Position numbers and translations under genes: made by a program
Notes under the pieces: generated by a model
What the model saw: only the letters and a program-made list of their open reading frames with translations
Database searches by the model: none
Told to the model about the DNA's origin: nothing
Assembly: GCF_001640025.1 (NCBI RefSeq)
Contig: NC_031672.1
Coordinates: 1,116,001-1,180,000, forward strand
Source of the DNA: Sugiyamaella lignohabitans
Lineage: Eukaryota; Ascomycota; Dipodascomycetes; Dipodascales; Trichomonascaceae
Direction: 5' to 3'
Length of the DNA: 64,000 bases
Part shown: positions 7,981-63,933 of the stretch, piece after piece
How the letters are laid out: the number at the start of each line of letters is the position of its first letter
Numbering within the stretch: the first letter of the stretch is position 1

Positions 7981-8118
7981 TGCCTCCGGCGGCTGGGGCT
8001 CCGCCCCAGACCCCGCTGCTCCTCTCGCTGCGCTCGAGTCGGTTCGTGTACGGTCCCAGCCAACTCCTGCGAAGCAGGAGCAACGGGGTCTGGGGCGCAG
8101 CCCCAGCCGCCGGAGGCA
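7981..8118 (+). repeat. GC-rich element, complete
   Basis: Complete copy: left tail, core GTACGGTCCCAGCC, right tail hairpin. The right half has loop variant GCA. Confidence 0.93.
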
Positions 8119-8475
8119 GACCCCCCAAAAGAATTTGAAAGCAAAATAAATAAATTAAAAAAGTCCTATCTATTACAGGCCGGCGGCTACAAATGTACCG
8201 GCACCTGTAACCACGTCGGGGCCTTCCGGTAGGAGGCGGGCGGGTCTAGTCATAATAGAAATATCCATCCGTATACACATAAAATCGTACAATCATTAAC
8301 ATAAAACATGCTCAGGCATCCGTCGAGCGTGTGTGTGTGTGTAGCAGACACACAGGTCGCTTGATGCATGAGACACATTTGGGGGCGGCGGCGTCTCTAA
8401 AGTCTAGTGTCGGTCGGGGCGAGTCTAGCAAGTGGACGAGGGGCAGTGTTTAAAAAAAAAATTCCACATGCTCAT

Positions 8476-8754
8476 TCACATTCTTCGGGCGCCAGATGAC
8501 ATGGGTCCACCTGCCTCAGCCACTGCGTTCCTGTGTAATGCTAATAATTGGTGTTGTTGCAACCAGTCTTCAATGTAATCGTCGGACAGTTTCTGTTCTC
8601 GCAGGTATGAACACCATAGTTTCCAGTTGTTCAGATGTCGGGCAGTGCGGAAATGATTATACATTTCGGCTCGGGGAAACGTCGTGTTTTTGCGATGACT
8701 TTCAGACCATTCGCAAACGACGCATGAAGAGTGGCCAGCCCAGCTTGATCCCAT
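8476..8754 (-). CDS. Possible small protein, unknown
   Basis: An ATG-initiated 92-residue frame with mixed, protein-like composition: a CVVC pair near the N-terminus and a Trp/Tyr/Leu-rich helical middle (NNWKLWCSYLREQKLSDDY). I see no known family. It overlaps none of the GC-rich repeats and sits alone in a long gene-poor stretch, so it could be a small gene, a last exon or chance. Confidence 0.3.
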   Translation of the reverse strand: MGSSWAGHSSCVVCEWSESHRKNTTFPRAEMYNHFRTARHLNNWKLWCSYLREQKLSDDYIEDWLQQHQLLALHRNAVAEAGGPMSSGARRM

Positions 8755-10928
8755 TGTATATTCAGTGCGTGTGCGTGTGCGAGAAAAAATAATAAAACAA
8801 TTAATTCAGCGGTACCGGGGTATGTGAAATGTAAATGCAAGTATGAGATCGGGAGTCGATCAGGTACAATAGTCAGTAGGTTAGTAGCGGTAGTCAGTAG
8901 CCAGTCAAACGGTAGATTGTAGATTATCGAGCTGCTGCTGCTAAGGCTAATAAGAGGAGACTAGTGACAGTAGTGACAAGAGACAGTGACAATCAGTAGA
9001 GAGAGTGAAGTCAGTAGTGTCAGATGCTTAGAAAGTCAGAGAGTCAGAGAGTCAGTAATGTCTGTAGTGTGCTAGAGGGCGACTACTACTAGGACAGTGA
9101 CAGAGGTCAATGTGACCAAAGGGATAGTAGAGACAGCAGCTGTAGAATCTAGACAGTAGCTGTCAGTCGAGCGTTTATGTGGTAGCCTCTAATACACTGG
9201 AACCAATATATTATCAGACTAGATCGCAATGAAGATATTAAAACCAAAAATAATAACAACAAATATCCAGAATATTCAGAAGAATCGAAAATTTAAAATC
9301 GAATATATGACAGTCTGAATACCTGAAATCGAGTACTAAGTTAAGCTAATATACAACCAGAAAATAGCAAGACTTAGTAGTAGCAGTACTAGCAGTAGTA
9401 AAAAGAGATCGGGAATAATAGCAGTAGTAAAAGAGATCGGGGAATAATACGATGGATCTTCTTTGTAGCGCAAACGGTTAAAAAATAGCGGCCAACCCGT
9501 TAAAAAAGTAGATAGAGAGATGTAAAAGCAACCAAGCAAGAAGTCACCAAGAATTAATTAATAGAGATAAAAGGGTGAGAAAAAAAATTATTATCACACG
9601 AGAAAATATAAATGCCAGGTAAAGACAAAAAAAAAACCAAATATAAAAAAAAACATAAAAGAGATATGATCTAATATTTATATGATCCAAAAGCAAGACC
9701 CAGTGACACTATGCAGGCACCCCACCTTGAGCAAAAGGCGCCGGCGACGAGGGATTGTCTCACAGTGACACGCGTTTGACGGGGAAAAATTACCGTTTCT
9801 TTTTGCGGATTGTGGTATCTGGTGGGAAAAAAATAAAAAAAACCCAGAGACCTTCAGGGGCAGCAATGCAAGACAAAGTACAACAAAAGAAATATAAACG
9901 AAACAGGAGAAGGGGTTAGGAGGTCATGAAACACACAGGCAGGATAAAAGTGACTAGTGGCATGTCACAAAATAGCCTAGTAACAACACGCATTTCGCAA
10001 GAGGCGGCCACGACTAGGACTAGGAACTACGAGACTGGGACTAACGAAGACCAGGGCCAGGGCCAGGGACTACCTATAAGGGTAGGGTAGGGTGGTAGGG
10101 TGGTAGCGAACTAACTCACTAGATCGATAGCGAGAGAAGGTGGAGACATGTCCGTTTTCGGGATGGCCTGGGTCAGTAGGTGCCTCGAGACAGAGAGCAA
10201 AGATGGGTAGTACGAAGCGCCAAAATAAACGACAACTGACCCGAAACAAGACTTAGCAAATGGCGAACCCGAGCTAATATCCAAACGGTTTAACACCGCA
10301 CCCCGATATCGAGTCATTCCGAGTTGAGCTAAGCACGGACCTGAAACATCTCCACCTATCCACTATTACTCAGTTCAGAGCACCAGCACCAGCAACATCA
10401 GCGGCCCGATCACTGAACAGGAGTCGATTCCACTTTGCTTTGCTGCTGCTACAGCTGCTGCTACCACTACTGCTACTGCCACGGCCAGTTGGGCTACTCC
10501 TCTTTGAGGCCGCACGACTCCGCTTTTACTCCGCTCCAAAACCACCTGAGTCCGTTTCAGGTCCGTTTTCAAAGGCGTCTGCTCCGAGTCAAACAAACCT
10601 GATTGTGCTTGGCAAATCAGGCCAGGTCTGCCCAGGCGGCCATCCTTCCCTTGCACGCTGCCTGCCCTGCTTCTGCTTCCCTGCTGGCAGTCAAGCAATC
10701 AGTCACAACTGGCACCCCACATATATGCCCACCGTGCACGCTACGGCCTGCCAGCCCGGGCCAGCCAGGATTACCGTCCTGGGGGTAGCCCACCCAGGAA
10801 TGACAAGCTGGCACCACCGCAACCGACGTAGGACGCCCAAACGCGATTAGCCTCTCCCAACTGAGCCAAGCATCGGGCCCATGTCACAGATTATAGCACA
10901 CGGCAGCCACTGCTACACTCCCCACGCC
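8755..10928. other. Gene-free region, low-complexity CAGTAG/GTCAG words
   Basis: From 8850 to 9190 the sequence is built of loosely repeated AGTAGTCAGT, AGTGACAG and GTCAGAGA words. A G-rich GGGTAGGGTAGGGTGG stretch lies at about 10080-10104. The 10400-10880 part becomes GC-rich. No supportable gene. Confidence 0.45.
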
Positions 10929-10990
10929 CGACTCGAGCGAAGCGAGAGGAGCAACCAGGGTCTGGGGCGGAGCCCCAGCCGCCGGAGGCA
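10929..10990 (-). repeat. GC-rich element, left half (reversed)
   Basis: Left half whose head faces the head of the next copy 17 bp away, the opposite of the complete-element arrangement. Confidence 0.9.
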
Positions 10991-11007
10991 AAGTGGGGCC
11001 GGGGGTA

Positions 11008-11069
11008 TGCCTCCGGCGGCTGGGGCTCCGCCCCAGACCCTGGTTGCTCCTCTCGCTTCGCTCGAGTCG
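11008..11069 (+). repeat. GC-rich element, left half
   Basis: Forms a head-to-head pair with 10929-10990. Loop TCC, tail intact. Confidence 0.9.
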
Positions 11070-11392
11070 AGTGTGGGGCCCCCGGGCAGTCCGGCGAGGT
11101 TGCCCGGGGCCCTTGACTGGGTGACAGGGCAGCGGTGGTGGTGACAGCGGCATGTGACACAGGGCCACTGGTCAGTCCAGGCGGGACTAGCCCGAATGCA
11201 GCGTCGAACCCAGGCTTAGTTCGTATTAAGGTTAGCGTACAGGAGGGTAGTAAACAGCACAAACAATCGGCCGCGCTCCCAAACTCGCTTTCTCGCTGGC
11301 TCCGAAAAAAGCAAACCTCGCAATCTTTCGGGCGATCCATTCATCGGCCGCCGCCTGGGTCCGGCCAAGCGGTTCCGAGTGGGTGGTAGGTG

Positions 11393-11454
11393 TGCCTCCG
11401 GCGGCTGGGGCTCCGCCCCAGACCCGGGTTGCTCCTCTCGCTTCGCTCGAGTCG
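11393..11454 (+). repeat. GC-rich element, left half
   Basis: Lone left half followed by a run of ten C residues. Confidence 0.9.
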
Positions 11455-12393: not shown

Positions 12394-12527
12394 TGCCTCC
12401 GGCGGCTGGGGCTCCGCCCCAGACCCTGGTAGCTCCTCTCGCTGCGCTCGAGTCGGTCCATCGACGGTCGCGGCCGCTCGCGAAGCGAGCACAACCCGGT
12501 CTGGGCGGAGCCCAGCCGCCGGAGGCA
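12394..12527 (+). repeat. GC-rich element, complete, third tail type
   Basis: Left half, core ATCGACGGTC, then a right half whose tail is the hairpin GCTCGC-GAA-GCGAGC. Its inner hairpin has lost one G and the pairing C (GGGC-GGA-GCCC). Confidence 0.88.
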
Positions 12528-12796: not shown

Positions 12797-12939
12797 TGCC
12801 TCCGGCGGCTGGGGCTCCGCCCCAGACCCTGGTTGCTCCTGCTTCGCAGGAGATTTCGGCCGGGGCCCCGACCCAACCACTCAAGCGAAGCGAGAGGAGC
12901 CATCTGGGGTTTGAGGCGGAGAACCAGTCGCCAGAGGCA
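12797..12939 (-). repeat. GC-rich element, complete but decaying
   Basis: Reverse orientation. The right half is intact. The other half carries several substitutions that break both the tail and the inner hairpin. Confidence 0.8.
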
Positions 12940-13202
12940 CACCCCTCCCTCTCTCCCCGTTTCAGGCTCCCGTATAGCATGCATCACTCGAAACACGCAG
13001 AGTGTAACTGAATCAAAGAACTGGATCTGATACTGCATGGTTCAATGCCGGCTGCATTATCGGCCTTTGGCCAGCAGCGACGCTAGTTTTTGTTAGTGCC
13101 CGTCTGTTGCATCATCCCACGGCATCGCGGCCGGTCAACTGACGTTCTCGCACCACGGATTTCAAGCTAATTCGTAGGACAAGGGTGCATGGGGACGGAG
13201 TG

Positions 13203-13346
13203 TGCCTCCGGCGGCTGGGGCTCCGCCCCAGACCCTGGTTGCTCCTGCTTCGCAGGAGTTGGTAGGTGGGGGGAAGGGGGGTGAACGACTCGAGCGGAGC
13301 GAGAGGAGCAGGGGGGTCTGGGGCGCAGCCCCAGCCGCCGGAGGCA
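13203..13346 (-). repeat. GC-rich element, complete
   Basis: Reverse orientation, with a G-rich unrelated spacer in place of the usual core. It ends about 170 bp upstream of the ETP1 start. Confidence 0.9.
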
Positions 13347-13516: not shown

Positions 13517-15691
13517 ATGGTGAGGTATCACATAATCGTGGAAACGGATAGCAGTGTCGACAAAGAAAAGAATAGTGGTCGTATCGAAGAGAGTTTTCAG
13601 ACCGAGAGTTCGGGGTTTGGCGTCAAATATTGCAGCTGGTCAAGCGCTGCGAAGAGTGTAGGAGACATATTTCTACCGGTGGAGAACTGGGAACGAGATT
13701 CGAGTTTGGGAGGTCAGAAGGAGAAGGAACGGAGATTTAGCGAAGTTGCTAGTAAGGTCAGTGAAGGCCGAATTAGCAGACCGGGAGAGGGACGATTACG
13801 AGCGACGAGCCTCTCACAGCAGCAGCTAGTGACTGGTGAGAGTGCCGGTAACGCCAACCCCGCCAGTGGAATCAGTTTGGGGCCTGGGAACTTTTTGAGC
13901 AGGAGACGTAGAAGTACACTTTCTGGAGAAGCCAGACCTGTGGATCCAGCTATCCATATTGCAAGAACAAGAAAAGATCAAAGCGGTCCGAAACCAGGGT
14001 CGAAGGAGTACTATAGTATCCATACCTCACGGGATTATAGATTTGGCCGAGTAGAGATTCAGGGGTTTGACAACGAAATGGCCAGTGCGAGTGTCACTAG
14101 TACCACAGTGGCAGAAGTGGCACAAGTGGCACAAGTGGCAGGGTCGAGCAGTGTTAACGATGATTTAGTTCCAGTTCCAGAAGCTAAGACGACTGCTACT
14201 CTGAAATCCACCTTCATGGGATATGGAGTGGTCAGACTATACAGAGAACAGGACGAAGGAGAGGAGGAGACTGCTGATACTGATGATGCCACTGTTGTAG
14301 CTATACTGGCTGTTCCAGGATATATGAGTACAGGCGATTTACTGGAATATCTGGGAGAAGATACCAGGAAACGCAGTTCACATATCCGACTGGTCACCAG
14401 CAACGGTGTGCCTAATAGATATATGGTGTTGATTAAGTTTCTGGATGCTAAATTTGCAACCGACTTTTATCTTAATTATAACGGAAAAGTGTTTAACTCT
14501 ATGGAAGCAGAGACTTGTCACGTTGTTTATGTTAAGAGCGTGCAATTCCGGTCTCCTCCACGACGAGGAGACGGCGACGAAATCCCTTATTTGATCAAAG
14601 ATCCGTTTACCGGAATAGGAATAGGAGCCGAAACAGACGACAAAACGGCAACCGAGTCATCAGCAACGGCAGTATCATCATCTCTAGTATCAAATTCTGC
14701 ATCAACATCATCAGCCATTCAACATAATAAACTGTCGTCGCTACAAGAACTCCCCACCTGCCCAGTGTGTTTGGAAAGAATGGATGCGACCATCACCGGA
14801 CTGCTGACTATTCTATGTCAACACACGTTTCACTGCCAATGTCTACAGAAATGGGGCGACTCGTCGTGTCCCGTGTGTCGTCATACAAACGCTGATTCAT
14901 ACGGAACATACGAGCAAGCCGACAGCAGCAGTGCTCTGCCTGCTCTGTCCAGTAAGTGCTATGTTTGCGAAGCAGGATCCAATCTATGGGCATGTCTTAT
15001 TTGTGGTCATGTAGGCTGTGGTCGGTACGACAAAGCCCATGCTTACGACCATTATGTGGCTACAGGACACTGTTTCTCCATGGATATCACTACTCAAAGA
15101 GTATGGGATTACTCGTCGGACGGCTATGTCCACCGACTGATTCAAAACCAGTCTGACGGCAAGCTCGTCGAGCTTCCATCGGGGTCTTCGTCTACAGCAG
15201 ACGGTAAAAAGGACATTGAAAACGACTTGTCCCTACAGTACACGTATTTATTAACTTCACAACTTGAGTCACAACGAGAGTACTATGAAAGCTTACTTGC
15301 CGAAGCCGAGGGTGCATTACTGCAATACAGGACACTCGACGACCGAATTGATCGTATTAAGCAAGAAAATGAGGCCAAGTTCCAGACCGACCATGCTCGA
15401 TTACTTGAAAAAGTGAAAACGATCTCTGAATCCGTGACCCAAGCCAATCGGCAAATCGAAGAAGAAAAAGCGTTCAGCCTCGGTTTAGTGACCAAAGTGG
15501 ACAGTCTCGTTGAAACAATCAAACAAAAAGACCAGGAAATCAACGACCTGAACGACCAGATCCGCGATCTCATGTTCTTCCTGGACGCCAAAGAAAAACT
15601 CGCCAACGCTGACGAAGACGTGCAACAAGGAACCGTCTCAGTGGCCCCCGCACCCTCCAAAAAGAAACCCAAACGCAAACCCAAAAAATAG
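13517..15691 (+). CDS. ETP1: BRAP2/Etp1-type RING-UBP zinc-finger protein
   Basis: Orthologue of yeast Etp1 and animal BRAP2/IMP, cytosolic RING E3-like proteins. Etp1 acts in ethanol tolerance. The 724-residue protein begins MVRYHIIVE, like fungal relatives; an in-frame stop (13466) lies above, so ATG 13517 is the first start. Domains in order: a variable 220-residue N-terminus; BRAP2 RRM-like domain at about 225-343; RING-H2 finger from C415 (CPVCLERM) to CPVCRH near 453; UBP-type zinc finger from C481 (CYVC, WACLICGHVGCGRY, AHAYDHYVATGH), which in the family binds free ubiquitin C-termini; a coiled coil at about 575-700; and a Lys-rich tail (KKKPKRKPKK). All zinc ligands are present. No intron. 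The next half-element starts 37 bp past the stop. Strong identification. Confidence 0.96.
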   Translation: MVRYHIIVETDSSVDKEKNSGRIEESFQTESSGFGVKYCSWSSAAKSVGDIFLPVENWERDSSLGGQKEKERRFSEVASKVSEGRISRPGEGRLRATSLSQQQLVTGESAGNANPASGISLGPGNFLSRRRRSTLSGEARPVDPAIHIARTRKDQSGPKPGSKEYYSIHTSRDYRFGRVEIQGFDNEMASASVTSTTVAEVAQVAQVAGSSSVNDDLVPVPEAKTTATLKSTFMGYGVVRLYREQDEGEEETADTDDATVVAILAVPGYMSTGDLLEYLGEDTRKRSSHIRLVTSNGVPNRYMVLIKFLDAKFATDFYLNYNGKVFNSMEAETCHVVYVKSVQFRSPPRRGDGDEIPYLIKDPFTGIGIGAETDDKTATESSATAVSSSLVSNSASTSSAIQHNKLSSLQELPTCPVCLERMDATITGLLTILCQHTFHCQCLQKWGDSSCPVCRHTNADSYGTYEQADSSSALPALSSKCYVCEAGSNLWACLICGHVGCGRYDKAHAYDHYVATGHCFSMDITTQRVWDYSSDGYVHRLIQNQSDGKLVELPSGSSSTADGKKDIENDLSLQYTYLLTSQLESQREYYESLLAEAEGALLQYRTLDDRIDRIKQENEAKFQTDHARLLEKVKTISESVTQANRQIEEEKAFSLGLVTKVDSLVETIKQKDQEINDLNDQIRDLMFFLDAKEKLANADEDVQQGTVSVAPAPSKKKPKRKPKK

Positions 15692-15727
15692 CACTCTCCA
15701 CTCACACTAATCCACGGGGCGGGGGTG

Positions 15728-15789
15728 TGCCTCCGGCGGCTGGGGCTCCGCCCCAGACCCTGGTTGCTCCTCTCGCTTCGCTCGAGTCG
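15728..15789 (+). repeat. GC-rich element, left half
   Basis: Begins 37 bp after the ETP1 stop codon, in the same strand sense as the gene. Confidence 0.92.
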
Positions 15790-15811: not shown

Positions 15812-15954
15812 TGCCTCCGGCGGCTGGGGCTCCGCCCCAGACCCTGGCTGCTCCTCTCGCTTCGCTCGAGTCGTTACGTCGACGGACCCAGCAGAAAACT
15901 CCTGCGAAGCAGGAGCAACCAGGGTCTGGGGCGGAGCCCCAGCCGCCGGAGGCA
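15812..15954 (+). repeat. GC-rich element, complete
   Basis: Near-consensus copy with core GTCGACGGACCCAGCAG. It follows the previous half after 22 bp. Confidence 0.95.
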
Positions 15955-16136: not shown

Positions 16137-17436
16137 ATGTCAATGAACTCGATTAAGCTGTTGGCGGGCGATGTCCACAGGGACCTGGCTGTTCTGGTCA
16201 GCAAAACGTAAGTGGAACTGCGGTTGTTTCATGTCTTCAACAGAGGAAGACCAGGAGACGAGAACCGAGCAGACGAAGCGGTTTCTGGCTTGATCTGGTG
16301 GACTGGCTGGTGGTTTCATTTGCTGGCGAAGTAATTTGCCCGCAATACTTGCAGGGGGGTCTGCCTCCGGCGGCTGGGGCTCCGCCCCAGACCCTGGTTG
16401 CTCCTCTCGCTTCGCTCGAGTCGTTGTGTCGACGGACCCAGGCAGAAAACTCCTGCGAAGCAGGAGCAACCAGGGTCTGGGGCGGAGCCCCAGCCGCCGG
16501 AGGCAGACCCCGACCCAGGAGTGTGGTACTAACGGTGTTGGCAGGCTTGGAATCCCGCTGTCGAAGGTGAATATCTCGCGAGATTCGAATAGAGAGATCT
16601 CGCTGACGATTGGCGAGTCGGTGCGAGACGAGGATGTGTATATTTTGACACAGATTGGGTCAGGAGACGTCAACGACCGTATTTTGGAGCTTCTGATTAT
16701 GATAAATGCATGTAAAACAGCGTCGGCCAGACGGATCACGGCGGTGATCCCCAATTTCCCGTATGCTCGTCAGGACCGTAAAGACAAGTCGCGGGCTCCT
16801 ATTACCGCCAAACTCATGGCCAACATGCTGGAGACTGCTGGGTGTAACCATGTGATTACTATGGACCTCCATGCATCCCAGATCCAGGGCTTTTTCGACG
16901 TTCCTGTCGATAATTTATACGCAGAACCCAGTGTTGTCAATTATATCAAGAACAATGTGGATTATAAGAACGCTATTATCGTGTCACCCGACGCAGGAGG
17001 TGCTAAACGAGCTGCTTCTTTGGCTGATAGATTAGACCTGAACTTTGCCCTGATTCATAAGGAACGAGCTCGTGCTAATGAAGTGTCGCGAATGGTGCTT
17101 GTGGGTGATGTTTCGGACAAAGTGTGTATTCTTGTCGACGACATGGCCGATACTTGTGGAACACTTGCCAAAGCCGCCGATACACTTTTGGGCCACGGAG
17201 CGCAGTCGGTGATTGCCATTGTCACGCACGGAATTCTGTCTGGCAAAGCCACCGAAATCATCAACAAAAGCAAACTGCACCGAGTCGTGTGCACAAACAC
17301 TGTTCCCCTCGAAGGCAAAGAGCTGGTGTGCGACCGGCTCCAACTTCTCGACGTCAGCCCGGTGCTGGCCGAGAGTATAAGACGGCTCCACAACGGTGAG
17401 TCCGTGTCGTACCTGTTCCGCAACGCACCTGTTTAA
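16137..17436 (+). CDS. PRS3: Ribose-phosphate pyrophosphokinase subunit (two exons)
   Basis: CDS is join(16137..16207, 16545..17436), 320 residues, the length of yeast Prs3. It makes 5-phosphoribosyl-1-pyrophosphate from ribose-5-phosphate and ATP for nucleotide, His and Trp synthesis; yeast Prs subunits work as hetero-oligomers in the cytosol. Exon 1 encodes [17 protein letters not shown] and continues to SK plus two bases of a split Thr codon. Exon 2 resumes with [13 protein letters not shown]. Key motifs: [19 protein letters not shown] (ATP-binding loop), [19 protein letters not shown], and the PRPP signature [19 protein letters not shown]. The alignment to Prs3 is nearly gapless across the splice junction, supporting the intron. 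CTG in exon 1 reads as a conserved Leu. It is convergent with the HAD gene downstream. Confidence 0.97.
16208..16544 (+). other. PRS3: PRS3 intron carrying a complete GC-rich element
   Basis: 337 bp, donor GTAAGT at 16208, branch site TACTAAC at 16527-16533, acceptor CAG ending at 16544. The GC-rich element fills 144 bp and ends 21 bp before the branch site. Confidence 0.95.
16362..16505 (+). repeat. GC-rich element, complete (intronic)
   Basis: Near-consensus, core GTCGACGGACCCAG. Flanked by GGGGTC on the left and GACCCC on the right, extending the inverted repeat by 6 bp. No clear direct target duplication. Confidence 0.96.
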
Positions 17437-17473: not shown

Positions 17474-17619
17474 TGCCTCCGGCGGCTGGGGCTCCGCCCC
17501 AGACCCTGGTTGCTCCTGCTTCGCAGGAGTTTTTTTGCTACTGGGTCCGTCACGCAACGACTCGAGCGAAGCGAGAGGAGCAACCAGGGTCTGGGGCGGA
17601 GCCCCAGCCGCCGGAGGCA
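17474..17619 (-). repeat. GC-rich element, complete
   Basis: Fills most of the 194 bp between the convergent PRS3 and HAD genes: 37 bp after one stop and 11 bp from the other. Confidence 0.95.
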
Positions 17620-17630
17620 GTGCCACCCCT

Positions 17631-21740: not shown

Positions 21741-21905
21741 TGCCTCCGGCGGCTGGGGCTCCGCCCCAGACCCTGGTTGCTCCTCTCGCTTCGCTCGAGT
21801 CGGGCGTGGGGGTCCAACATGTGCTAGGGGTTTTCCCGCTGCTCGACTGGAGCGAAGCGAGAGGAGCAACCAGGGTCTGGGGCGGAGCCCCAGCCGCCGG
21901 AGGCA
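21741..21905. repeat. Inverted pair of left half-elements
   Basis: Two left halves, tails inward, separated by 40 bp of unrelated sequence, filling the gap between convergent GT31 and TUB1 (36 bp and 72 bp from the two stops). The second tail reads CGACTGGAGCG, a one-base variant. Confidence 0.92.
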
Positions 21906-24119: not shown

Positions 24120-24181
24120 TGCCTCCGGCGGCTGGGGCTCCGCCCCAGACCCTGGCTGCTCCTCTCGCTCCGCTCGAGTCG
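24120..24181 (+). repeat. GC-rich element, left half
   Basis: Direct repeat of the preceding half, about 120 bp apart. Both are followed by GTTTC and a short G-rich stretch, suggesting local duplication. Confidence 0.9.
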
Positions 24182-24412
24182 TTTCGTCGGGGACCCCAGA
24201 AATCTCCTACTTCGGTATTATTTTCTTATCTTTATCATTATGAAGAAGATAAATTTGAAATTAGATCATATGTAGGAATATATTCACCATTAGTGATATT
24301 TCTGGATTAGGTTTAAGAACGTTTAGTGGTGAAACTGTACAATTAGAATCATATATTGTACCCGGTGATTTATTAGAAGTTGGACAATTAATTACGTTTA
24401 GTAGATGTTGAT

Positions 24413-24459
24413 TGGCAGGAGACACGGGGTCTGGGGCAGAGCCCCAGTCGCCGGAGGCA
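24413..24459 (+). repeat. GC-rich element, truncated right half
   Basis: Right half with most of its tail hairpin missing. Inner loop variant AGA, head with one substitution. Confidence 0.75.
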
Positions 24460-30511: not shown

Positions 30512-30652
30512 TGCCTCCGGCGGCTGGGGCTCTGCCCCAGACCCCGTGGCTCCTGCTTCGCAGGAGTTGGCTGGGGGACCGTCGACAAAACCGACTCGAG
30601 CGCAGCGAGAGGAGCAGCGGGGTCTGGGGCGGAGCCCCAGCCGCCGGAGGCA
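30512..30652 (-). repeat. GC-rich element, complete
   Basis: Reverse orientation, core GACCGTCGAC. The two halves have different loops (TCT and GGA), so they were not recently homogenised. Confidence 0.94.
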
Positions 30653-31693: not shown

Positions 31694-33109
31694 ATGACTT
31701 CTACTTCTCTTGTTACTGCAGTCAACGACCTTGTCGAGGAATTCGCCGTTTCTGACAAGGTTCTTAATGACAGTGTCAATTACTTTGTTGAACAGTCTGT
31801 TCACGGTTTGGCTGAAACTGCCGACTCTTCCGCTCGTGGTTTACCCATGATCCCCACTTTCGTCACTTCGGTTCCTACTGGTGAAGAAAAGGGAACCTTT
31901 TTGGCTGTTGATTTGGGTGGTACTAACTTCAGAGTGTGTTCTTTGAAACTCAATGGAGATTCTACTTATGACATGGTTCAAGACAAGGCGCCCATTCCTC
32001 AAGAATTGATGGTCGGCAATTGCAGTGACTTTTTCGGTCATTTGGCAGACAGAATCCAACAATTCTTAGAAACTCATCATTCCGAGACTATTAGCTGTGC
32101 TTTCGAAGAAGAAGGTGCTGGCAAGCCTGTACTGTTTAAGATGGGGTTCACTTTCTCGTTCCCTGTTGATCAGACTGCTCTTAACCGGGGTAAACTGATT
32201 CGTTGGACAAAGGGTTTTGATATTAAGGACGCTGTTGGCAAGGATATCTGTCTTGAGTTGCAGAATGCCATTGACGCAAGAAACCTGCCTGTTCATGTGG
32301 CTGCTCTTGTTAATGACACTGTTGGCACCCTGATGTCCAGAGCTTATACCAAGCCCTCAGACGGCCGTACTTTGATTGGATGTATCTTTGGTACTGGTAC
32401 TAATGGAGCTTATTCCGAGAGAATCAAGAAGATCCCCAAGTTCGATGCTCAAGCCCACCCTGAAGTCACTGAGAAGATCATGGTTATTAACACCGAATGG
32501 GGTTCTTTTGACAACGATTTGAAGGTCATTCCCAACACCCGATTCGACAAACAGGTAAATGAGAACACTCCTAACAAGGGATTCCACATGTTTGAAAAGA
32601 GAATCAGTGGCATGTTCCTTGGCGAGCTACTTCGTCTTGTTCTTACCGAATTGCAGTCCAAGAAACTGCTTTTCACGTCTGGCTCTGGTAATGGTAAATT
32701 GAGTGTTGCCTGGTCGGCCGACTCGTCGGTTCCTGCTCTCATTGACGGCGACTCTTCGAGCGACCTTTCTCTTGCTGGCAACACCATTAAAGAAGCATTT
32801 GGCTATGAAACGACTCTTGAAGAGCGCAAGCAGATCCAAAGAGTGGCCCGAGCCATTGGCAAACGATCCGGATACCTGTCTGCCATCCCACTCGCCGGAC
32901 TCATCATCCACACCAAAGCATTGGAGAAGTTCGACAAAATCGATATTGGCGCCGACGGCTCGGTCGTCGAGTTCTACCCACACTTTCAAGAGTACATCCA
33001 CGACGCTCTCCGCAAGACCGTCATCGGCGACGACGAGAAGCGCGTCGCCATCGGCATCGCCAAAGATGGCTCCGGCGTCGGTGCCGCCCTCTGTGCCCTC
33101 GTCGCCTAG
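31694..33109 (+). CDS. GLK1: Glucokinase
   Basis: 471-residue cytosolic hexokinase-family enzyme phosphorylating glucose at C6, the entry step of glycolysis. Motifs: LAVDLGGTNFRVC (phosphate-1, from about residue 70), sugar-binding GFTFSFPVDQTALNRG with IRWTKGF at 151-175, catalytic D208 in NDTVG, IFGTGTNGAY, EWGSFDN, and a C-terminus KDGSGVGAALCALVA identical in form to S. cerevisiae Glk1. It lacks the N-terminal MIG-interacting features of Hxk2. Slightly shorter than yeast Glk1 (500) through loop deletions after the FEKRISGMFLGE motif. ATG at 31694 matches family starts. The 5' flank is very T-rich for about 700 bp. Convergent with the homeodomain gene. Confidence 0.97.
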   Translation: MTSTSLVTAVNDLVEEFAVSDKVLNDSVNYFVEQSVHGLAETADSSARGLPMIPTFVTSVPTGEEKGTFLAVDLGGTNFRVCSLKLNGDSTYDMVQDKAPIPQELMVGNCSDFFGHLADRIQQFLETHHSETISCAFEEEGAGKPVLFKMGFTFSFPVDQTALNRGKLIRWTKGFDIKDAVGKDICLELQNAIDARNLPVHVAALVNDTVGTLMSRAYTKPSDGRTLIGCIFGTGTNGAYSERIKKIPKFDAQAHPEVTEKIMVINTEWGSFDNDLKVIPNTRFDKQVNENTPNKGFHMFEKRISGMFLGELLRLVLTELQSKKLLFTSGSGNGKLSVAWSADSSVPALIDGDSSSDLSLAGNTIKEAFGYETTLEERKQIQRVARAIGKRSGYLSAIPLAGLIIHTKALEKFDKIDIGADGSVVEFYPHFQEYIHDALRKTVIGDDEKRVAIGIAKDGSGVGAALCALVA

Positions 33110-33169: not shown

Positions 33170-33308
33170 TGCCTCCGGCGGCTGGGGCTCCGCCCCAGAC
33201 CCTGGTTGCTCCTGCTTCGCAGGAGTTGACTGGGACCGTCGACGAAACGACTCGAGCGGAGCGAGAGGAGCAGCGGGGTCTGGGGCGGAGCCCCAGCCGT
33301 CGGAGGCA
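33170..33308 (-). repeat. GC-rich element, complete
   Basis: Occupies the gap between convergent GLK1 and homeodomain genes: 60 bp and 130 bp from the two stops. Core GACCGTCGACG. Confidence 0.95.
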
Positions 33309-41247: not shown

Positions 41248-41395
41248 TGCCTCCGGCGGCTGGGGCTCCGCCCCAGACCCTGGTTGCTCCTCTCGCTTCG
41301 CTCGAGTCGTCTCGTCGAGGGGTCCAGTCAGCGAAAAAACTCCTGCGAAGCAGGAGCAACCAGGGTCTGGGGCGGAGCCCCAGCCGCCGGAGGCA
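41248..41395 (+). repeat. GC-rich element, complete
   Basis: Core reads GTCGAGGGGTCCAGTC, slightly diverged; both tails intact. Confidence 0.94.
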
Positions 41396-43391: not shown

Positions 43392-43579
43392 TGCCTCCGG
43401 CGGCTGGGGCTGCGCCCCAGACCCCCCTGCTCCTCTCGCTTCGCTCGAGTCGTTTGCGTGGGGGGACCCCTCGACTCAGCAAACCCCTGAGCCCCAAACC
43501 GCTGGCACCCCCCTCGCAACGACTCGAGCGAAGCGAGAGGAGCCGGGGGTCTGGGGCGCAGCCCCAGCCGCCGGAGGCA
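43392..43579. repeat. Inverted pair of left half-elements
   Basis: Two left halves, tails inward, about 64 bp of unrelated C-rich sequence between them. 203 bp past the stop of the GPI-protein gene. Confidence 0.9.
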
Positions 43580-47409: not shown

Positions 47410-47549
47410 TGCCTCCGGCGGCTGGGGCTCCGCCCCAGACCCTGGTTGCTCCTGCTTCGCAGGAGATTTCAGAGTCCCCAGACGAAAACGACTCGAGCGA
47501 AGCGAGAGGAGCAGCGGGGTCTGGGGCGGAGCCCCAGCCGCCGGAGGCA
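47410..47549 (-). repeat. GC-rich element, complete
   Basis: Reverse orientation; core eroded to GTCCCCAGACGAAAACG. Confidence 0.93.
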
Positions 47550-49258: not shown

Positions 49259-49320
49259 TGCCTCCGGCGGCTGGGGCTGCGCCCCAGACCCTGGTTGCTC
49301 CTCTCGCTGCGCTCGAGTCG
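49259..49320 (+). repeat. GC-rich element, left half (duplication unit 1)
   Basis: Loop TGC, tail with CTGCG. 119 bp past the HSP12 stop. Confidence 0.92.
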
Positions 49321-49544
49321 GGCTTCGGGAATGACAGAATAGCATTTTCTGGAGGATGGTTGCAAGTTTTTCACCGGCTGTTGGTTCACACCCCCCTGGA
49401 TGCCCCGCCAACTCAGGGGAACGTACCCCGCAGAGTGCATGCTATCACCAACCGTTCCTTATCTTGCGTAATCACAGCTCCGACTACGGAGTCAGCGCAT
49501 ATACTACCACCCTCCTCCCAGAACAAACCCAATCCCCTCGCAAT

Positions 49545-49599
49545 CTCCTGCGAAGCAGGAGCCACGGGGTCTGGGGCGGAGCCCCAGCTGCCGGAGGCA
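49545..49599 (+). repeat. GC-rich element, right half (unit 1)
   Basis: Tail hairpin intact; head has one substitution (CAGCTGCCGG). Confidence 0.9.
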
Positions 49600-49618
49600 G
49601 GTACTGGTAGTGGGGTTG

Positions 49619-49680
49619 TGCCTCCGGCGGCTGGGGCTCCGCCCCAGACCCTGGTTGCTCCTCTCGCTACGCTCGAGTCG
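49619..49680 (+). repeat. GC-rich element, left half (unit 2)
   Basis: Loop TCC and tail CTACG, so it differs from its unit-1 partner at both variable positions. Confidence 0.92.
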
Positions 49681-49905
49681 GGCGTCGGGAGTGGCAGATA
49701 GCATTTTCTGGAGGATGGTTACAAGTTTTTTCACCGGCCGTTGGTTCACACCCCCCTGGATGCCCCGCCAACTCAGGGGAACGTACCCCGCAGAGTGCAT
49801 GCTATCACCAACCGGTCCTTATCTTGCGTAATCACAGCTCCGACTACGGATTCAACGCACACACCACCATCCTCCTCCCAGAACAAACCCAATCCCCTCT
49901 GCAAT

Positions 49906-49960
49906 CTCCTGCGAAGCAGGAGCCACGGGGTCTGGGGCGGAGCCCCAGCCGCCGGAGGCA
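49906..49960 (+). repeat. GC-rich element, right half (unit 2)
   Basis: Consensus head, unlike unit 1. Confidence 0.9.
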
Positions 49961-49979
49961 GGTGCTGGTAGTGGGGTTG

Positions 49980-50034
49980 TGCCTCCGGCGGATGGGGCTC
50001 CGCCCCAGACCCCGTGGCTCCTGCTTCGCAGGAG
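49980..50034 (-). repeat. GC-rich element, right half (reversed)
   Basis: Abuts unit 2; one head substitution (GGCGGATGGGG). Confidence 0.88.
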
Positions 50035-55768: not shown

Positions 55769-58343
55769 TTACTTTCCGTGTACGTGCAAGGTTCCGTTTG
55801 TTGTCCCGTTTATCATGCCGTTGGAGTTAGCGACACCATTGGTATAGGGGCTTGCTCCTCCGCTTCCGTTGACATAGGTATTTGATGAGTTACTTCCATT
55901 TGACGAGGAGCTGTTCTGTGATGAGTATCCGTTCATTTGTGAACAAGGGATCTGGTTGGTAAAAGCATAGGCCGAGGCTGCTTGAGAGCTGATAGAGTTT
56001 GATCTCGATTGCGAAGCTCCGCCACCAGTGCGGAATATCGTCGACGACAGTCTTTTAACAGTGGCAGCTGGTTTGTTTGCAACCATGCTGTATCGGTCAG
56101 TTCCAGATACAATGTCATTCAAGTCAAACTGTTGAGAAAAAGGCTGGGGTCCTCCGGCATTTCCTGCTAATGTCGACAAGGTAGGAGACGACATGCGGTG
56201 GTAACCGGCAGAAGACCCAATTCTGTTCAAATGAAGCTCTGAGTTGTGGGATCCAGGACCGCCCACCGACCGTCTCGACCGTCTAGCAGTAATGTTCATC
56301 ATGTCGATTTCTTTGTTTTTGACAGGTTGTGGCGAACTGAAGTTCAGAACAGGTTCAGTGTATCGTTTAGGTGATGTTCTAATCGATGGTCTGGACAGAG
56401 GTGGTGGTGCAGCAAGGTTGTGTTGTTGTTGTTGGCGTGATGGTGGTCTGTTAGGAACCTGTCCTTGAGGAGCTTGTCCTTGGGGAACTGGTGGTCTTTG
56501 CTGTTGCTGCAGTTGTTGCTGTGATGGATAGTAATATTGTTGCGATGGTTGCTTTTGATGTTGTTGTTGATGCTGCTGTTGATGTTGCTGTTGATACTGT
56601 GGTTGTTGCAATGGCTGCTGCTGTTGTTGTTGCTGATAAGATCCTCTTCGGTTTGGAGGAGGGTGCTGATTGGTTTCGAGACTGTAAACATGCTGTTCGC
56701 GAGCTAGCAGCGCTTGTTCCCGTTTATACAGAGCATCTTCACGAGCTTTTAAAGCAGCAAGAGATGCAGCCGACGCAGGTTTCGAATCGACTACCGAGGT
56801 CGACAGCAGACTATTGCTGCTGCCAGTGTTGCTACTGGCTGGAGAAGATGCTGTAGAGGTAGTAGCAGGAGGAGCGAGTAAAGAACCGGCACCTGAAACG
56901 GTGATATTCTTTCTATGCCACAAAGTCGATGCATCTTCATGGTCGTTGAGCTTGGCTAACTGGGTCATAAACGCAAAAACACATTCTAAATAAGGGGTAG
57001 AAGCAGACAGTCCTAACTCATCAGACAAGAGAATGGGATGAAGCAAAATAATGTCGACAGGAATGTTGAACCGGTAAAAGTACTCGTAATACATGTAAAC
57101 AGACGAAGAATGAGGGAAAACAGGAGATGTCGAGGTGAGGATTTTCGGGGTTACAGACTGAATAAGCATAGGGTGTACAAAATCGTCGAGCGAACCCAAA
57201 CTTTCGCATTCAGGACCACCTTGGCGCTTTGCAATTAGTAATAATTCATTAATAATGCCCTCATAAATGGGTCTGGCAACAACACTAGACGCCAGTTTAG
57301 CCGGATCACTGATATCGAGCATAATAGACAGCGGTTCAAAAGCTATTAACGGAATGGCTCTCTGCCACTGGTGTTTCAAAAAAGCACCTGGACTAGAAAC
57401 AATTGACGCATCCAAGCCCGAGGTTTGTAAGAACAAAACGAGGTCTCTAATCATGGACGAAGCACGCAGTTCAAACGGGTCAGGAGCGGCCGGTTCGAAA
57501 TACACTCTGTTAGACCCATTAGACCCGGAAAAATGGACGTATTTGCAGCCCGATTCTGGAGGGATTTTGTAGACGTTTGAGTCGCTAATAACACAAGATA
57601 CAGGGTTTTTTGGGAATTTCTGGCGAACGTAATTTTGTAGTGGAGGAGATCGCGAAGTGTCGAGAAGAATAAGTGTATGGCCAGAAATAATGAGTTTTTG
57701 CAGCGGTTTGAGAATTCTGTTCAATTGACGCAGCGAGGCCAACGACAATAGCACTATATCAAACCCCAATATACTCGTATCATTATTATTATTCGGCAAA
57801 GAGACGCTTGTCGACGAAGGAGAAACATCGTCTTCATTCGCATTCCCACTCGCATTTCCAACTGGATCCAGTGTATTATAATCCAAAACATGATCAGGAG
57901 TAAACGTACCAGACACGCCAAACGACTCGGACGAAATCAAAACACCGGACTTCTTAGACGACAAATTCGGCCATGCCACAGACACAGAACAAGACTGAGA
58001 CGCCGCCAGCCTCCACGACAAAAACACCGCCGAGGCGCTCGACCCGACTACCCCTGTTAGTTTCTGTTCGTGGGTGTGCCTCCGGCGGCTGGGGCTACGC
58101 CCCAGACCCCTCAGCTCCTCTCGCTTCGCTCGAGTCGGGCGTCGACGACCCCCTACGAAAAAAAACTCCTGCGAAGCAGGAGCAACCAGGGTCTGGGGCG
58201 GAGCCCCAGCCGCCGGAGGCAGTCCCCTCCCCCCAAAACACCCCAGAAAACGAGCTCCCGGTCCAGTTGGACCTAGAAACCAGTCGTCAGGAGTCAGGAG
58301 ACGTAGAATGGTACTTACTGGACAATACTCGCAATCTCGACAT
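55769..58343 (-). CDS. SVL3: Svl3/Pam1-like protein with PanE-type fold (two exons)
   Basis: CDS is complement(join(55769..58047, 58319..58343)), 767 residues. Exon 1 is only 25 bp (MSRLRVLS plus one base); spliced to exon 2 it gives RVLSIGSSASAVFLSWRLA, a Rossmann-like start as in ketopantoate reductases, but with the Gly motif degenerate. PanE-like features continue (GFDIVLLSLASL, HTLILLDTS) to the helical C-terminal domain near ISDPAKLASSVV and YEGIINELLLIAKRQG. The second half is Gln/Ser-rich and disordered with a short basic segment (ITARRSRRSVGG). Yeast Svl3 and Pam1 share a PanE-like N-domain with a long tail, localise to bud tip and neck and have no known enzymatic role. The orthology is my best guess; an enzymatic role looks unlikely. 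Confidence 0.72.
58048..58318 (-). other. SVL3: SVL3-like intron carrying a complete GC-rich element
   Basis: 271 bp on the minus strand: donor GTAAGT at 58318, branch AAACTAAC at 58056-58063, acceptor TAG ending at 58048. Phase matches on both sides. The element fills 145 bp and ends about 14 bp before the branch site. Confidence 0.88.
58077..58221 (+). repeat. GC-rich element, complete (intronic)
   Basis: Core GTCGACGACCCCC; inner loop TAC in the left half, GGA in the right. Its + direction is antisense to the host gene. Confidence 0.95.
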
Positions 58344-59715: not shown

Positions 59716-59777
59716 TGCCTCCGGCGGCTGGGGCTCCGCCCCAGACCCTGGTTGCTCCTCTCGCTGCGCTCGAGTCG
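59716..59777 (+). repeat. GC-rich element, left half
   Basis: Consensus left half with CTGCG tail variant. Confidence 0.92.
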
Positions 59778-59853
59778 GGCGAGGGGGTGCCAAAGAGGGG
59801 GCTGTGCGTGGACTTCTGCGCTACCCCTCCGCCCGGCGGGGAACGCCCCTCGC

Positions 59854-59916
59854 CCGACTCGAGCGCAGCGAGAGGAGCAACCAGGGTCTGGGGCGGAGCC
59901 CCAGCCGCCGGAGGCA
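59854..59916 (-). repeat. GC-rich element, left half (reversed)
   Basis: Tail faces 59716-59777 across a 76 bp spacer; both carry the same CTGCG/CGCAG tail variant. Confidence 0.92.
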
Positions 59917-60284
59917 AGCCCCCCTCCCTGCGCAGTTACGTAAATGGCTGGTGGGTTGTGCAGAGCGGGTGCCTATCGAGGCCGATCAGTGTGCTTGATA
60001 GCCCCCGGTGTTTCAAGCTAGAAATCGATCGTTGCTGTTTTGCGACTGGCGGAAGCCATGTACGAGCCCCCCTTTAGCACATCTGCCCCTCGAACCATGC
60101 CTGTTCAGGAGCCCATCTTCCCACCTCCTCCTGCGTTAGGACCCGCTCAAACTCAAACTGGCACCACCTGACGGACCTGCCCAACCGAACTCACTTGCCC
60201 CTCCCCATCTCTGCTCGTCCATCCCACAAGCCCCATTAGTGGCGGTCTGCATTCTGCTGTTCGGTGCTCTGGTGGGGGGAGGGC

Positions 60285-60346
60285 TGCCTCCGGCGGCTGG
60301 GGCTCCGCCCCAGACCCTGGTTGCTCCTCTCGCTTCGCTCGAGTCG
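60285..60346 (+). repeat. GC-rich element, left half
   Basis: Consensus; tail CTTCG. Confidence 0.92.
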
Positions 60347-60454
60347 GGCGTGGGGGAGCGGGGGAGTTCAGGGGGTGGGGTTGCGGGTGATGTGACAGTG
60401 AGTCCAGTTCATGGCTTTGACCCGTTTCGCAAATTGAGTGGCAGGCCCACGCAA

Positions 60455-60516
60455 CGACTCGAGCGAAGCGAGAGGAGCAACCAGGGTCTGGGGCGGAGCC
60501 CCAGCCGCCGGAGGCA
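60455..60516 (-). repeat. GC-rich element, left half (reversed)
   Basis: Pairs with 60285-60346, tails inward, 108 bp spacer, matching tail variant. Confidence 0.92.
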
Positions 60517-61553: not shown

Positions 61554-61605
61554 CCGAGCGAAGCGAGCCACGGGGTCTGGGGCAGAGCCCCAGCCGCCGG
61601 AGGCA
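61554..61605 (-). repeat. GC-rich element, short-tailed half
   Basis: Tail CGAGCGAAGCGAGC as in the 55034-55357 cluster; loop AGA. Confidence 0.85.
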
Positions 61606-62163
61606 GACCCCCATCCCCCCCTGAAACCACCCCTGAGAGACGTTTGGAGTTCACGTGACAAGACGCTTCTCCACAAAAAGTTCCAGTCGCTTCGGCGGTG
61701 AGGGAGCAGCTTATTTGGGAGAAAACAACGCGAGGTCTGCAAAATACGCTTGCTGTGCCACAGACTACGCAGGATATTAGCAGCCAACAAAGCACACTTG
61801 ATTTGACTCTTCCCGAAAATTTCACTGGCATTTTCACCGACCGCCAACCTACACCAGTTGTGAGTTATTAGATCAGAACCAATTGCACACGCACACAATG
61901 TACGTAGCAGGCACAATGGGCGCGACCACCTGGGATTTTACATAGGGGATTCGAAAAAAACGAACAGGGATTGGCTGGCCACGAGCGATTGCGGGATCGC
62001 GAACTTGGGACATGGAACGGCGACTACTCTCGACTCAGTGCGGAGCTGAATCTGGATCATTCGACACACGACACTATCGACTCCTCCCGAATATGGACAA
62101 ACGAAACAGTCAATGACAAAATTTAGGTTTCACCAACAACGAAAAACAACGAAAAACACATTC

Positions 62164-62185
62164 GACCCCACGTCCACGTCCACGT

Positions 62186-62219
<34 letters not shown>

Positions 62220-62220
62220 C
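62164..62220 (+). repeat. CCACGT/CCACGA hexamer array
   Basis: About nine tandem hexamers, the first ones ending in T and the later ones in A. Confidence 0.8.
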
Positions 62221-62461
62221 CCACCATTCTTCATCAGCTCTTCATCAACCCTCAATCAGCGTTGGTGACACAGTCAATGGATCACTGACGGAGGACAGGC
62301 GGGACAGACCGACTGGCGACCACGACCCTGGCGAATCGACTCCTCTAACAACTCTCACCTCGAACTCCAACACCCACCACCGACCACGACCCGGAGCTTG
62401 GATCAGGGTCCTGCAACGACTGCTGTCTCACACGGTCCGCTGGACACGGGACTGGGTGCCG

Positions 62462-62522
62462 TGCCTCCGGCGGCTGGGGCTCCGCCCCAGACCCCGCTGC
62501 TCCTCTCGCTTCGCTCGAGTCG
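62462..62522 (+). repeat. GC-rich element, left half
   Basis: Consensus head, GACCCCGCTGCTCC body. Confidence 0.92.
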
Positions 62523-62843
62523 GGCGTGGGGGTCCCCCGTTTGTTGAAGGACGGTCGTCGTCAGGAACAAGGTGTCCGGCATCAGCACTGGCATCGGAAT
62601 CAGCAGCACCAGAACCGATCCAGACTCGAGAACCATTGGTTCAATGGAGTAATTTTCTGTGATTATGGTTCTTTTCGACAACAGAGAGCCTCGACAGGGC
62701 CTCTTTCCATGAACCAACCCCCTCGACACCCCCCTCCCCCTGATCTGCTCACCATGTCCCCTCCACCCCGCATGTCTCCACCATCCCCCTCCCTCGCCTC
62801 TCCCCGCACCGCCCCTCCCCAACGCTGCCCCTCACCCCACGCA

Positions 62844-62904
62844 CCGACTCGAGCGTAGCGAGAGGAGCCACGGGGTCTGGGGCGGAGCCCCAGCCGCCGG
62901 AGGC
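62844..62904 (-). repeat. GC-rich element, left half (reversed)
   Basis: Ends 55 bp before the EGD1 start codon and 33 bp before a CTAAC branch-like motif, so it may lie in a 5'-UTR intron. Confidence 0.92.
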
Positions 62905-62937
62905 GGGCCCCCCCGCCCCTCCCCCTTAGAGCCGTAG

Positions 62938-62951
62938 ACTAACAGTTACAG
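62938..62951 (+). other. EGD1: Possible 5'-UTR intron acceptor of EGD1
   Basis: GACTAACAGTTACAG: CTAAC branch-like motif followed by a CAG, ending 7 bp before the ATG. The matching donor was not found with confidence. Confidence 0.4.
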
Positions 62952-62958
62952 ATTCATT

Positions 62959-63405
62959 ATGGACGCCGATAAGTTAGCTCGTCTTCAGAAGTCCGTCAGA
63001 ATCGGCGGTAAGGGTACTCCTCGTCGTAAGGTCAAGAGAACCGCCAAGAACACCGAGGGCGATGACAAGAAGCTCCAAGCCGCTCTTCAAAAGGTCCAAG
63101 TTCAACCCATCACCGGTATTGAGTCGGTTAACATGTTCAAGGACGACGGCACTGTTCTGCACTTCCCCCGTGCCTCTGTTCAAGCCTCTGTTCCTTCCAA
63201 CACATTTGCCATCACCGGTAACCCCGTTGAGAAGACCATGAGCGAGATGCTTCCCGAGGTCCTTTCTTCCATGGGTCCTGAGTCTTTGGAGCAATTGCGT
63301 CAACTCACCGAGCAACTCAAGGCCGGTACCGGTGCTAAGGAGGCCGAGGACGACGATATTCCCGAGCTCGTCGAGGGCGAGAACTTCGAGGACCGTGTCG
63401 ACTAA
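62959..63405 (+). CDS. EGD1: Nascent polypeptide-associated complex beta subunit
   Basis: 148-residue BTF3/NAC-beta protein that pairs with NAC-alpha (Egd2) and sits at the ribosomal exit tunnel, shielding nascent chains. N-terminal [19 protein letters not shown] is typical; the ribosome-binding motif is RRKVKR at 22-27. The NAC domain spans about 36-105 ([34 protein letters not shown]). An acidic C-terminal tail ends in EDRVD. Full length. Codon use is strongly biased (AAG, GTC, CTC), as in highly expressed genes. A CTAAC-CAG arrangement just upstream suggests a 5'-UTR intron. Confidence 0.97.
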
Positions 63406-63651
63406 ACACTCCCCCCTCGTCCCCCTCTCTTCTCACGAGCACCACCCCACTTCCCCACTTCTACCACCACCGCGACCATGTCGTGCCCCACTCTACGAAT
63501 AACGAAGTGAAAAAAACTGCAACCCTCGAGAGCTACCTGTTAAGATAATATCTGTATATATATATCTTGTGTACGAAAAGAGCAGCCTGCCGCTGCCTCG
63601 CGAAACCCTCATCTCGGTTCCGGCCCCGGACTCACGGTGGGGGCACGCACC

Positions 63652-63712
63652 TGCCTCCGGCGGCTGGGGCTCTGCCCCAGACCCCGCTGCTCCTCTCGCT
63701 GCGCTCGAGTCG
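63652..63712 (+). repeat. GC-rich element, left half
   Basis: Loop TCT, CTGCG tail. Confidence 0.92.
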
Positions 63713-63750
63713 TTGCGTGGAGGGGTCCCCGTCGCTGGGGGGTGGGGTTC

Positions 63751-63811
63751 TGCCTCCGGCGGCTGGGGCTCCGCCCCAGACCCCGCTGCTCCTCTCGCTG
63801 CGCTCGAGTCG
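63751..63811 (+). repeat. GC-rich element, left half
   Basis: Direct repeat of the previous half after 38 bp; loop TCC. Confidence 0.92.
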
Positions 63812-63877
63812 ATGCGTCGAGGGCCCTCTGCCATCTCCTGCGGAGCACCCCGCTGCGTGGAGGGGTCCCCCCGCCAT

Positions 63878-63933
63878 CTCCTGCGAAGCAGGAGCAACCA
63901 GGGTCTGGGGCGGAGCCCCAGCCGCCGGAGGCA
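63878..63933 (+). repeat. GC-rich element, right half
   Basis: With 63751-63811 it forms a left-to-right element whose 66 bp spacer lacks the usual core. Confidence 0.9.

Follow-up and report, generated by a model that had tools for sequence, protein, structure and literature searches.

The locus and its repeats

The window analysed here comprises 64,000 bp of the yeast Sugiyamaella lignohabitans (positions 1,116,001-1,180,000 of contig C1, from a genome of 15,932,016 bases on 4 contigs) and holds genes for alpha-tubulin, hexokinase, a GATA factor and aldehyde dehydrogenase as well as other eukaryotic genes, in long single frames. Among them lie many copies of a short GC-rich hairpin repeat, which we find to be a real, genome-wide and nuclear family; embedded as the copies are among nuclear genes such as those for alpha-tubulin and hexokinase, they do not have a mitochondrial location. 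The head of the repeat, TGCCTCCGGCGGCTGGGGC, was matched 71 times in the window at ≤3 mismatches, with 0.02 matches expected from shuffles, which bears out the approximately 70 half-units of a preliminary description of this DNA; at ≤1 mismatch, 36 matches were on the plus and 30 on the minus strand. The same description had the repeat dominate the non-coding DNA, which is too strong, as the arms make up ~6.7% of the window (at 60 bp per head). An Rfam scan of the window gave nothing at gathering scores, and sub-threshold microRNA-precursor matches on doublets, which lay far under the curated scores, were taken as long-hairpin noise.

The unit of the family is an arm of 57-61 bp consisting of the head, a GC hairpin and a second hairpin of type A, B or the rarer C and D. 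Its common order is TGCCTCCGGCGG, then CTGGGGC-NNN-GCCCCAG, then ACCC with a variable linker, and finally the second hairpin, whose tail reads CTCCTCTCGCTNCGCTCGAGTCG in A arms and CTCCTGCTTCGCAGGAG in B arms; the C arm has a shortened first stem and GTGCTCGC-TTC-GCGAGC. In the typical doublet, A-spacer-B', the heads face outward, and approximately the first 33 bases are common to both arms and constitute terminal inverted repeats. As the two tails differ, such a doublet has a direction. All seven complete copies named previously are present at 138-148 bp: five of them run A-spacer-B' on the plus strand (7981..8118, 138 bp; 15812..15954, 143 bp; 16362..16505, 144 bp; 41248..41395, 148 bp; 58077..58221, 145 bp), and two are reversed, with B first, on the minus strand (33170..33308, 139 bp, with convergent genes on either side whose stops lie at 33109 and 33439; 47410..47549, 140 bp). 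Equally reversed on the minus strand are the complete doublets at 13203..13346, at 17474..17619 (with convergent ORFs on either side, stops 17436 and 17631) and at 30512..30652. The short core said to occur in most copies was confirmed in degenerate form; the exact version GTCGACGGNCCCAG is carried by the pairs at 15812, 16362 and 33170, or 3 of 10 close A-B pairs in the window.

The reported organization as A-B units plus solos holds for the A-B doublets and for true solos, and to these we add A-A', B-B', A-C and C-C pairs, wide pairs and head-to-head pairs. For instance, an A-C' doublet lies at 12394..12527 (plus strand), and an A-A' pair with an insert unlike the other pairs shown lies at 21741..21905 amid convergent genes (stops 21705 and 21978). 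Wide pairs, with ~40-330 bp between their arms, are often A-A' pairs around other DNA, as at 43392..43579, 59716..59916, 60285..60516 and 62462..62905 (~330 bp separating the arms), and one at 24120..24459 has a degraded right arm. The wide A-B' pair at 49259..49998 is part of a tandem duplicate (49259-49599 and 49619-49960) followed by a third B head at 49980, with head-to-head spacers of 19 bp, and at 10972..11026 two facing heads 17 bp apart form the rare head-to-head arrangement; none of these pairs other than the A-C' doublet is assigned a strand. A solo A arm at 15728..15789 (plus strand) stands 36 bp past a stop at 15691, within an 84-bp local tandem repeat and flanked by GGGCGGGGGT direct repeats. 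At 12880-12940, a strongly degraded partner arm faces the B head at 12797 and is one of the few decayed arms.

For larger counts, the window was joined with 26 fetched stretches, several of them picked for repeat density, into a sample of 316 kb with 258 heads, of which 210 could be strictly parsed, the remaining 48 being excluded from the arm counts; the head finder allowed no indels, and an indel-tolerant scan gave 2 extra heads that were used in no count. The parsed heads comprise 124 A, 63 B, 17 C and 6 D arms. Close pairs are non-coding and 96-158 bp long, and among the 42 outward ones with both arms parsed there are 38 A-B, 3 A-C and 1 C-C. Neighbouring heads less than 500 bp apart outside the close pairs point outward 31 times, inward 12 times and in the same direction 17 times. 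In the whole genome, doublets with an exact A end and B hairpin separated by 8-38 bp number 1,100 (553 + 547). A search of the genome for inward exact heads with spacers of 3-33 bp gave 49 head-to-head pairs, 43 of them at 16-21 bp and none below 16; these lengths were counted by hand from a complete listing, and pairs with mutated heads (e.g. 49581/49619) are excluded. In another fetched stretch (L013), two A-like units at 8390 and 8563, with a CCGGGC stem, a length of 58 bp and related flanks, look like a separate subfamily or an older local duplication.

Copy number and dispersal

The further copies that were called for exist in abundance: a 19-base head matched the genome 6,423 times at ≤1 mismatch (3,207 + 3,216; control 0) and is present on all 4 contigs, and by arithmetic (60 bp per head) the arms would occupy ~2.4% of the genome. 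A DNA search with the doublet 16362..16505 returned full-length relatives of 92-97% identity on all four contigs among the 40 of 2,141 candidates scored. When the masked flanks of the copies in the sample were compared, 25 alignments were obtained in total, of which 3 adjoined a head, one of these three being a local tandem duplication. As the flanks of different copies hardly match, the repeat has been dispersed to unrelated sites, whatever the timing and manner. The first 10 kb of each of the four contigs contain no heads.

No description of the repeat was found in the open-access literature searched, including passages of papers mentioning S. lignohabitans, in line with the earlier suggestion of an undescribed nuclear element. 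New with regard to the preliminary description are an outer G-run, the proximity to stop codons, the confinement of variation to certain sites, the head-to-head spacing of 16-21 bp and a bacterial look-alike.

Conserved arms and variable sites

Over 30 fixed bases of the head and first hairpin, 202 sites have 0 mismatches, 31 have 1 and 21 have 2-7. Similarly, 131 of 143 A arms chosen at ≤6 mismatches are perfect over 23 fixed bases, with 26 of 3,289 cells off consensus (0.8%). The middle base of the A loop is T in 80, G in 46, C in 10 and A in 7 of these arms, i.e. off consensus in 63 of 143 (44%), and all 91 A loops caught by a free-triplet pattern read T-N-C (G-N-A on the other strand), with every N seen. 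G-N-A triloops closed by GC form extraordinarily stable DNA mini-hairpins; d(GCGAAGC) is listed as one among the works that PMC10527192 cites. The first loop and the linker are variable as well, and in the spacers 24% of sites depart from the consensus (measured on the 23 that are 22 bp long, from a set of 55); columns 22-32 of all heads, shortened C stems and degraded arms included, do so at 3.9%. Since conservation of the arms by far exceeds that of the spacer, an element of the type of the bacterial REPINs or the mitochondrial GC clusters, both discussed below, fits better than a decaying miniature inverted-repeat transposable element (MITE).

Two other accounts of this pattern were rejected. 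Hypermutation of all loops disagrees with the B loops, which read TTC in 44 of 47 cases, and with the inner TCC of the head, which hardly varies (heads being picked by sequence); and variation centred on the middle of the spacer, as would follow from opening of the hairpin tip, disagrees with spacer variation that is spread along the full length.

Conservation also depends on the arrangement, as whole arms in the sample are perfect in 91 of 116 close-pair, 47 of 62 wide-pair and 49 of 79 solo cases, and doublets are thus better conserved than solos (Fisher p 0.015). In the tandem duplication 49259-49960, the insert changed at 14 of 218 sites and the arms outside the loops at 1 of 110 (the latter number being a hand count; p 0.024); the A arms differ solely at the middle bases of both loops, and the B arms at one head base. 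This is a single locus, and it cannot separate selection from conversion. Its insert (49321-49537) has no copies besides the two tandem ones.

The outer G-run

Within 14 bp outside the head, GGGG is found at 160 of the 258 heads of the sample and CCCC at 12 of 258, whereas the more distant interval from -40 to -27 has 13 and 32, respectively, and the background for GGGG is 2.5% of 5,563 random non-genic stretches. The commonest head flanks are GGGGTC (21) and GGGGTG (17), the arm itself starting with TGCC. Together with the head-to-head spacing, the G-run suggests that each unit reaches ~8 bp beyond TGCC. When an A arm with an added GGGGTC was folded as single-stranded DNA, the GGGT was predicted to pair with the arm's ACCC and to close a junction around two hairpins with the stems GCC-TCC-GGC and CTGGGGC-TCC-GCCCCAG. 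We hypothesize from this model that the arm may pair with the G-run of a target in a guide-like manner.

A REPIN-like family in a yeast nucleus?

The explanation we prefer, with confidence that is about evenly balanced, is that the repeats form a REPIN-like family of mobile, non-autonomous hairpin elements in the yeast nucleus, with the doublet as its main replicative unit. In this unit, a spacer of ~22 bp would connect two arms of ~60 bp each, both with the head pointing outward. As a single strand of DNA (or RNA), each arm would adopt a fold of GC hairpins in which its ACCC could base-pair with the GGGT outside the head, and an enzyme acting in trans would copy this folded form into single-stranded G-rich sites that probably lie in 3' flanks of genes undergoing transcription. 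By-products of this process or insertions of single arms would account for solos and wide pairs. A mobile origin is likely, and a function is possible.

According to passages of the published account, REPINs of Pseudomonas and other bacteria are inverted doublets of REP sequences with conserved ends, a less conserved spacer and singlets that are decayed relative to doublets (PMC3116915), and they are associated with Y1 transposases (PMC3116915, PMC3733652). The likeness lies in the inverted doublet, the short conserved palindromic ends, the looser spacer, the extragenic position and the advantage of doublets over singlets (same passages of PMC3116915). In contrast, the repeat described here resides in a yeast nucleus, has ~60-bp arms, each of which might form two or three hairpins, comes with no Y1/RAYT gene that we could find, and starts its arm with TGCC instead of the GTAG/CGTC tag. 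By analogy, it would be most like REPINs or mitochondrial GC clusters in its working, but it falls fully within neither class.

Several observations weigh against a mobile REPIN-like family. Degraded copies are few, which maintained function or homogenisation would explain as well as mobility; wide-pair arms do not clearly differ from solo arms (p 0.10); the predicted folds are weakly to modestly better than those of shuffles (z of -1.2 and -1.0 on the two strands for the A arm, -2.6 and -1.8 for the B arm); and the outer G-run shows no visible difference between arms with ACCCC and arms with ACCCT (the two variants of ACCCY). Furthermore, a genome search for the Y1 (REP-type, RAYT) transposase PF01797 gave 0 matches, its control being positive in 5 of 14. 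An autonomous partner with a shared head, which the preliminary description had proposed to look for, did not appear either, in searches covering Y1 and MULE transposases (mariner, hAT, Harbinger and other families were not searched), and no enzyme was tied to the repeat.

If mobile, the repeat would be a REPIN-like family at high density in the nuclear genome of a eukaryote, with neither a clear target duplication nor a known enzyme; if selected, it would be a gene-end hairpin at about half of the sampled stops, kept almost letter-perfect despite a drifting spacer. In a small yeast genome such as this one, presence/absence and deletion tests are simple.

Position relative to genes and a possible host gene-end element

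An alternative, unlikely in our view and yet the one that fares best beside the REPIN-like family, is that the repeat is a host gene-end element, i.e. a hairpin signal of 3' flanks (for transcription end, mRNA 3' protection or the boundary of convergent genes) kept by selection site by site. Genes of the sample were filtered by codon usage, leaving an incomplete set of 71 that covers 34% of bases. Of 70 stops, 34 have a head at a distance of up to 150 bp, as against 3 of 67 starts, and none of the 258 heads falls inside these genes. Without the filter, 27 of 181 heads fall into ORFs of ≥150 aa, and most of these ORFs are taken to be spurious. Of 18 solo heads up to 300 bp from a stop, 15 are turned towards it and 3 away. 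The arms are kept while the spacer drifts, and in the tandem duplication the insert changed more than the arms outside the loops (14 of 218 versus 1 of 110). However, 36 of 70 sampled stops have no head, for 45 heads the closest recognised gene end is 1-2 kb away (with the gene set being incomplete), and the first 10 kb of all four contigs are free of heads. Moreover, mere avoidance of promoters and coding DNA would be expected to give the same bias, and the outward pairing by itself makes the nearest head face the gene.

Target duplications, enzymes and the MITE reading

The preliminary description had called the repeat MITE-like, which holds as far as inverted ends, lack of coding capacity and dispersal are concerned; membership among MITEs proper is not supported. 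That it is a classical MITE, belonging to a DNA transposon of which the autonomous copy has been lost or lies in a family outside those searched, we consider rather improbable. The inverted ends, the absence of coding capacity and the thousands of near-identical heads, a high copy number typical of MITEs, speak for it, and some end repeats were found: 2-bp repeats occur at 7 close pairs against 2.9 expected, and two solo arms (window 15728 and position 3105 of the fetched stretch L010) have 10-bp direct repeats where 1.0 such case was expected. On the other hand, none of the 58 close pairs of the sample has a direct repeat of at least 3 bp abutting both ends, the 2-bp repeats are of six different kinds, an offset search at close pairs gave 1 case of at least 7 bp against 0.3 expected, and target duplications at solo and half units did not exceed those of shuffled pairs apart from the two 10-bp cases. 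The MULE transposase had 0 matches in the genome with a positive control, whereas the 0 for the Helitron Rep/helicase is uninformative, its control having been silent everywhere. Neither the free combination of modular arms (A-A', B-B', A-C), which does not behave as one unit, nor the strong outer G-run is what a MITE would predict, and a partner, as said, was not found.

The solo A arm of L010 (3105-3190) lies in AT-rich DNA with no G-run, between 10-bp direct repeats ATATCTTATT and with 17 extra bases after the arm, and could be atypical or a fresh insertion. A candidate autonomous copy in the same stretch, with two heads 4 kb apart and open frames of 394 and 527 aa between them, was rejected, as an additional A head at 6954, carrying one extra base, places the right-hand head in an ordinary close doublet.

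Resemblance to mitochondrial GC clusters

Fungal mitochondria harbour double-hairpin elements with two hairpins per unit, and the present repeat is alike in this respect, by description and not by sequence. In yeast mitochondria, the GC clusters of the GC42 type concentrate their changes in loops and are tied to AG target nucleotides, as stated in sections of the paper describing them (PMC4478555). A nuclear counterpart of such clusters, spread by template switching or the copying of an RNA and homogenised by gene conversion, seems decidedly improbable. Both are intergenic GC-rich palindromes; GC42 is mobile and has loop-concentrated changes (same sections of PMC4478555), with which the A-loop middle base is in keeping here (44% versus 0.8%), and the linker class agrees between the two arms of 42 parsed close pairs more often than after shuffling (27 versus 19.1 +/- 2.8). 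The agreement of loop 1, however, shows no excess (27 versus 26.9), not all loops vary (the B loops being TTC in 44 of 47), and where the sections on GC42 report AG target nucleotides (PMC4478555), 0 of the 7 two-base repeats found here are AG. The yeast repeat differs further in being nuclear, in its ~140-bp doublets and in its outer G-run, and it is likened to GC42 by description, not by sequence.

An assembly or vector artefact, to which the near-identity of the arms might point, is practically negligible given the heads on every contig, the non-matching flanks (just 3 head-adjacent alignments), the variable spacers and linkers and the gene-end bias.

A bacterial look-alike

An exact 28-base pattern of head and first hairpin was found in 4 records of an 84,980-species collection (three Desulfovibrionaceae and one Acetobacteraceae) and in none of the viral contigs. 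The corresponding genomes were searched with GCCTCCGGCGGCNNGGGG, a pattern fitted to the bacterial stems, which had 189, 99, 11 and 0 matches (control 0); the first two numbers belong to two Desulfovibrionaceae genomes, in which GCCTCCGGCGGC is a dispersed repeat (loci L028, L040, L043 and L046 in genome G001, L041 and L044 in G004). These hairpins share with the yeast repeat an identical 12-base head, followed by a GC hairpin and, in most fetched loci, by ACCCC. Their stems vary and are mostly CCGGGGG or CCAGGGG, whereas the yeast stem CTGGGGC lies outside the GCCTCCGGCGGCNNGGGG pattern; most loci have no visible outer G-run, and A or B tails are absent. The likeness does not establish a common origin. 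Some bacterial heads stand shortly past an open frame, for instance by ~2 bp in L029 and by 30 bp in L043 (examples, not a systematic count), and four fetched Y1 loci of the two bacterial genomes have 0-3 head-core-like sites each (≤1 mismatch). Rfam had no match at the bacterial repeat in the five loci scanned, and among the papers found in a literature search none was plainly about this repeat.

Why should the same 12 bases, a GC hairpin and ACCCC occur in such distant organisms? A 34-base consensus gave partial matches in plasmids and phages, including the hairpin with ACCCC in Streptomyces plasmids, and judging from such matches part of the motif is widely recurrent. With the hairpin and ACCCC also present in Streptomyces plasmids, transfer and convergence on a stable GC hairpin are equally likely. 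The boldest version of our proposal, a nuclear REPIN counterpart that is targeted to G-runs by ACCCC, moved by an enzyme unlike Y1, still active, and shares its head with bacteria through horizontal transfer, is put forward as highly doubtful.

Other observations

Between 36050 and 40670, the window contains 4.6 kb of AT-richer DNA with no head and no selected ORF of at least 150 aa; the locus may be non-coding or contain introns. The starts of the four contigs (L009, L014, L019 and L024, positions 1-1350) have ~1 kb in common at 84-94% identity, a subtelomeric repeat. Finally, the Solidesulfovibrio locus L028 carries at 5536-5620 a c-di-GMP-I riboswitch (Rfam RF01051, 51.7 bits) that is unrelated to the repeat.

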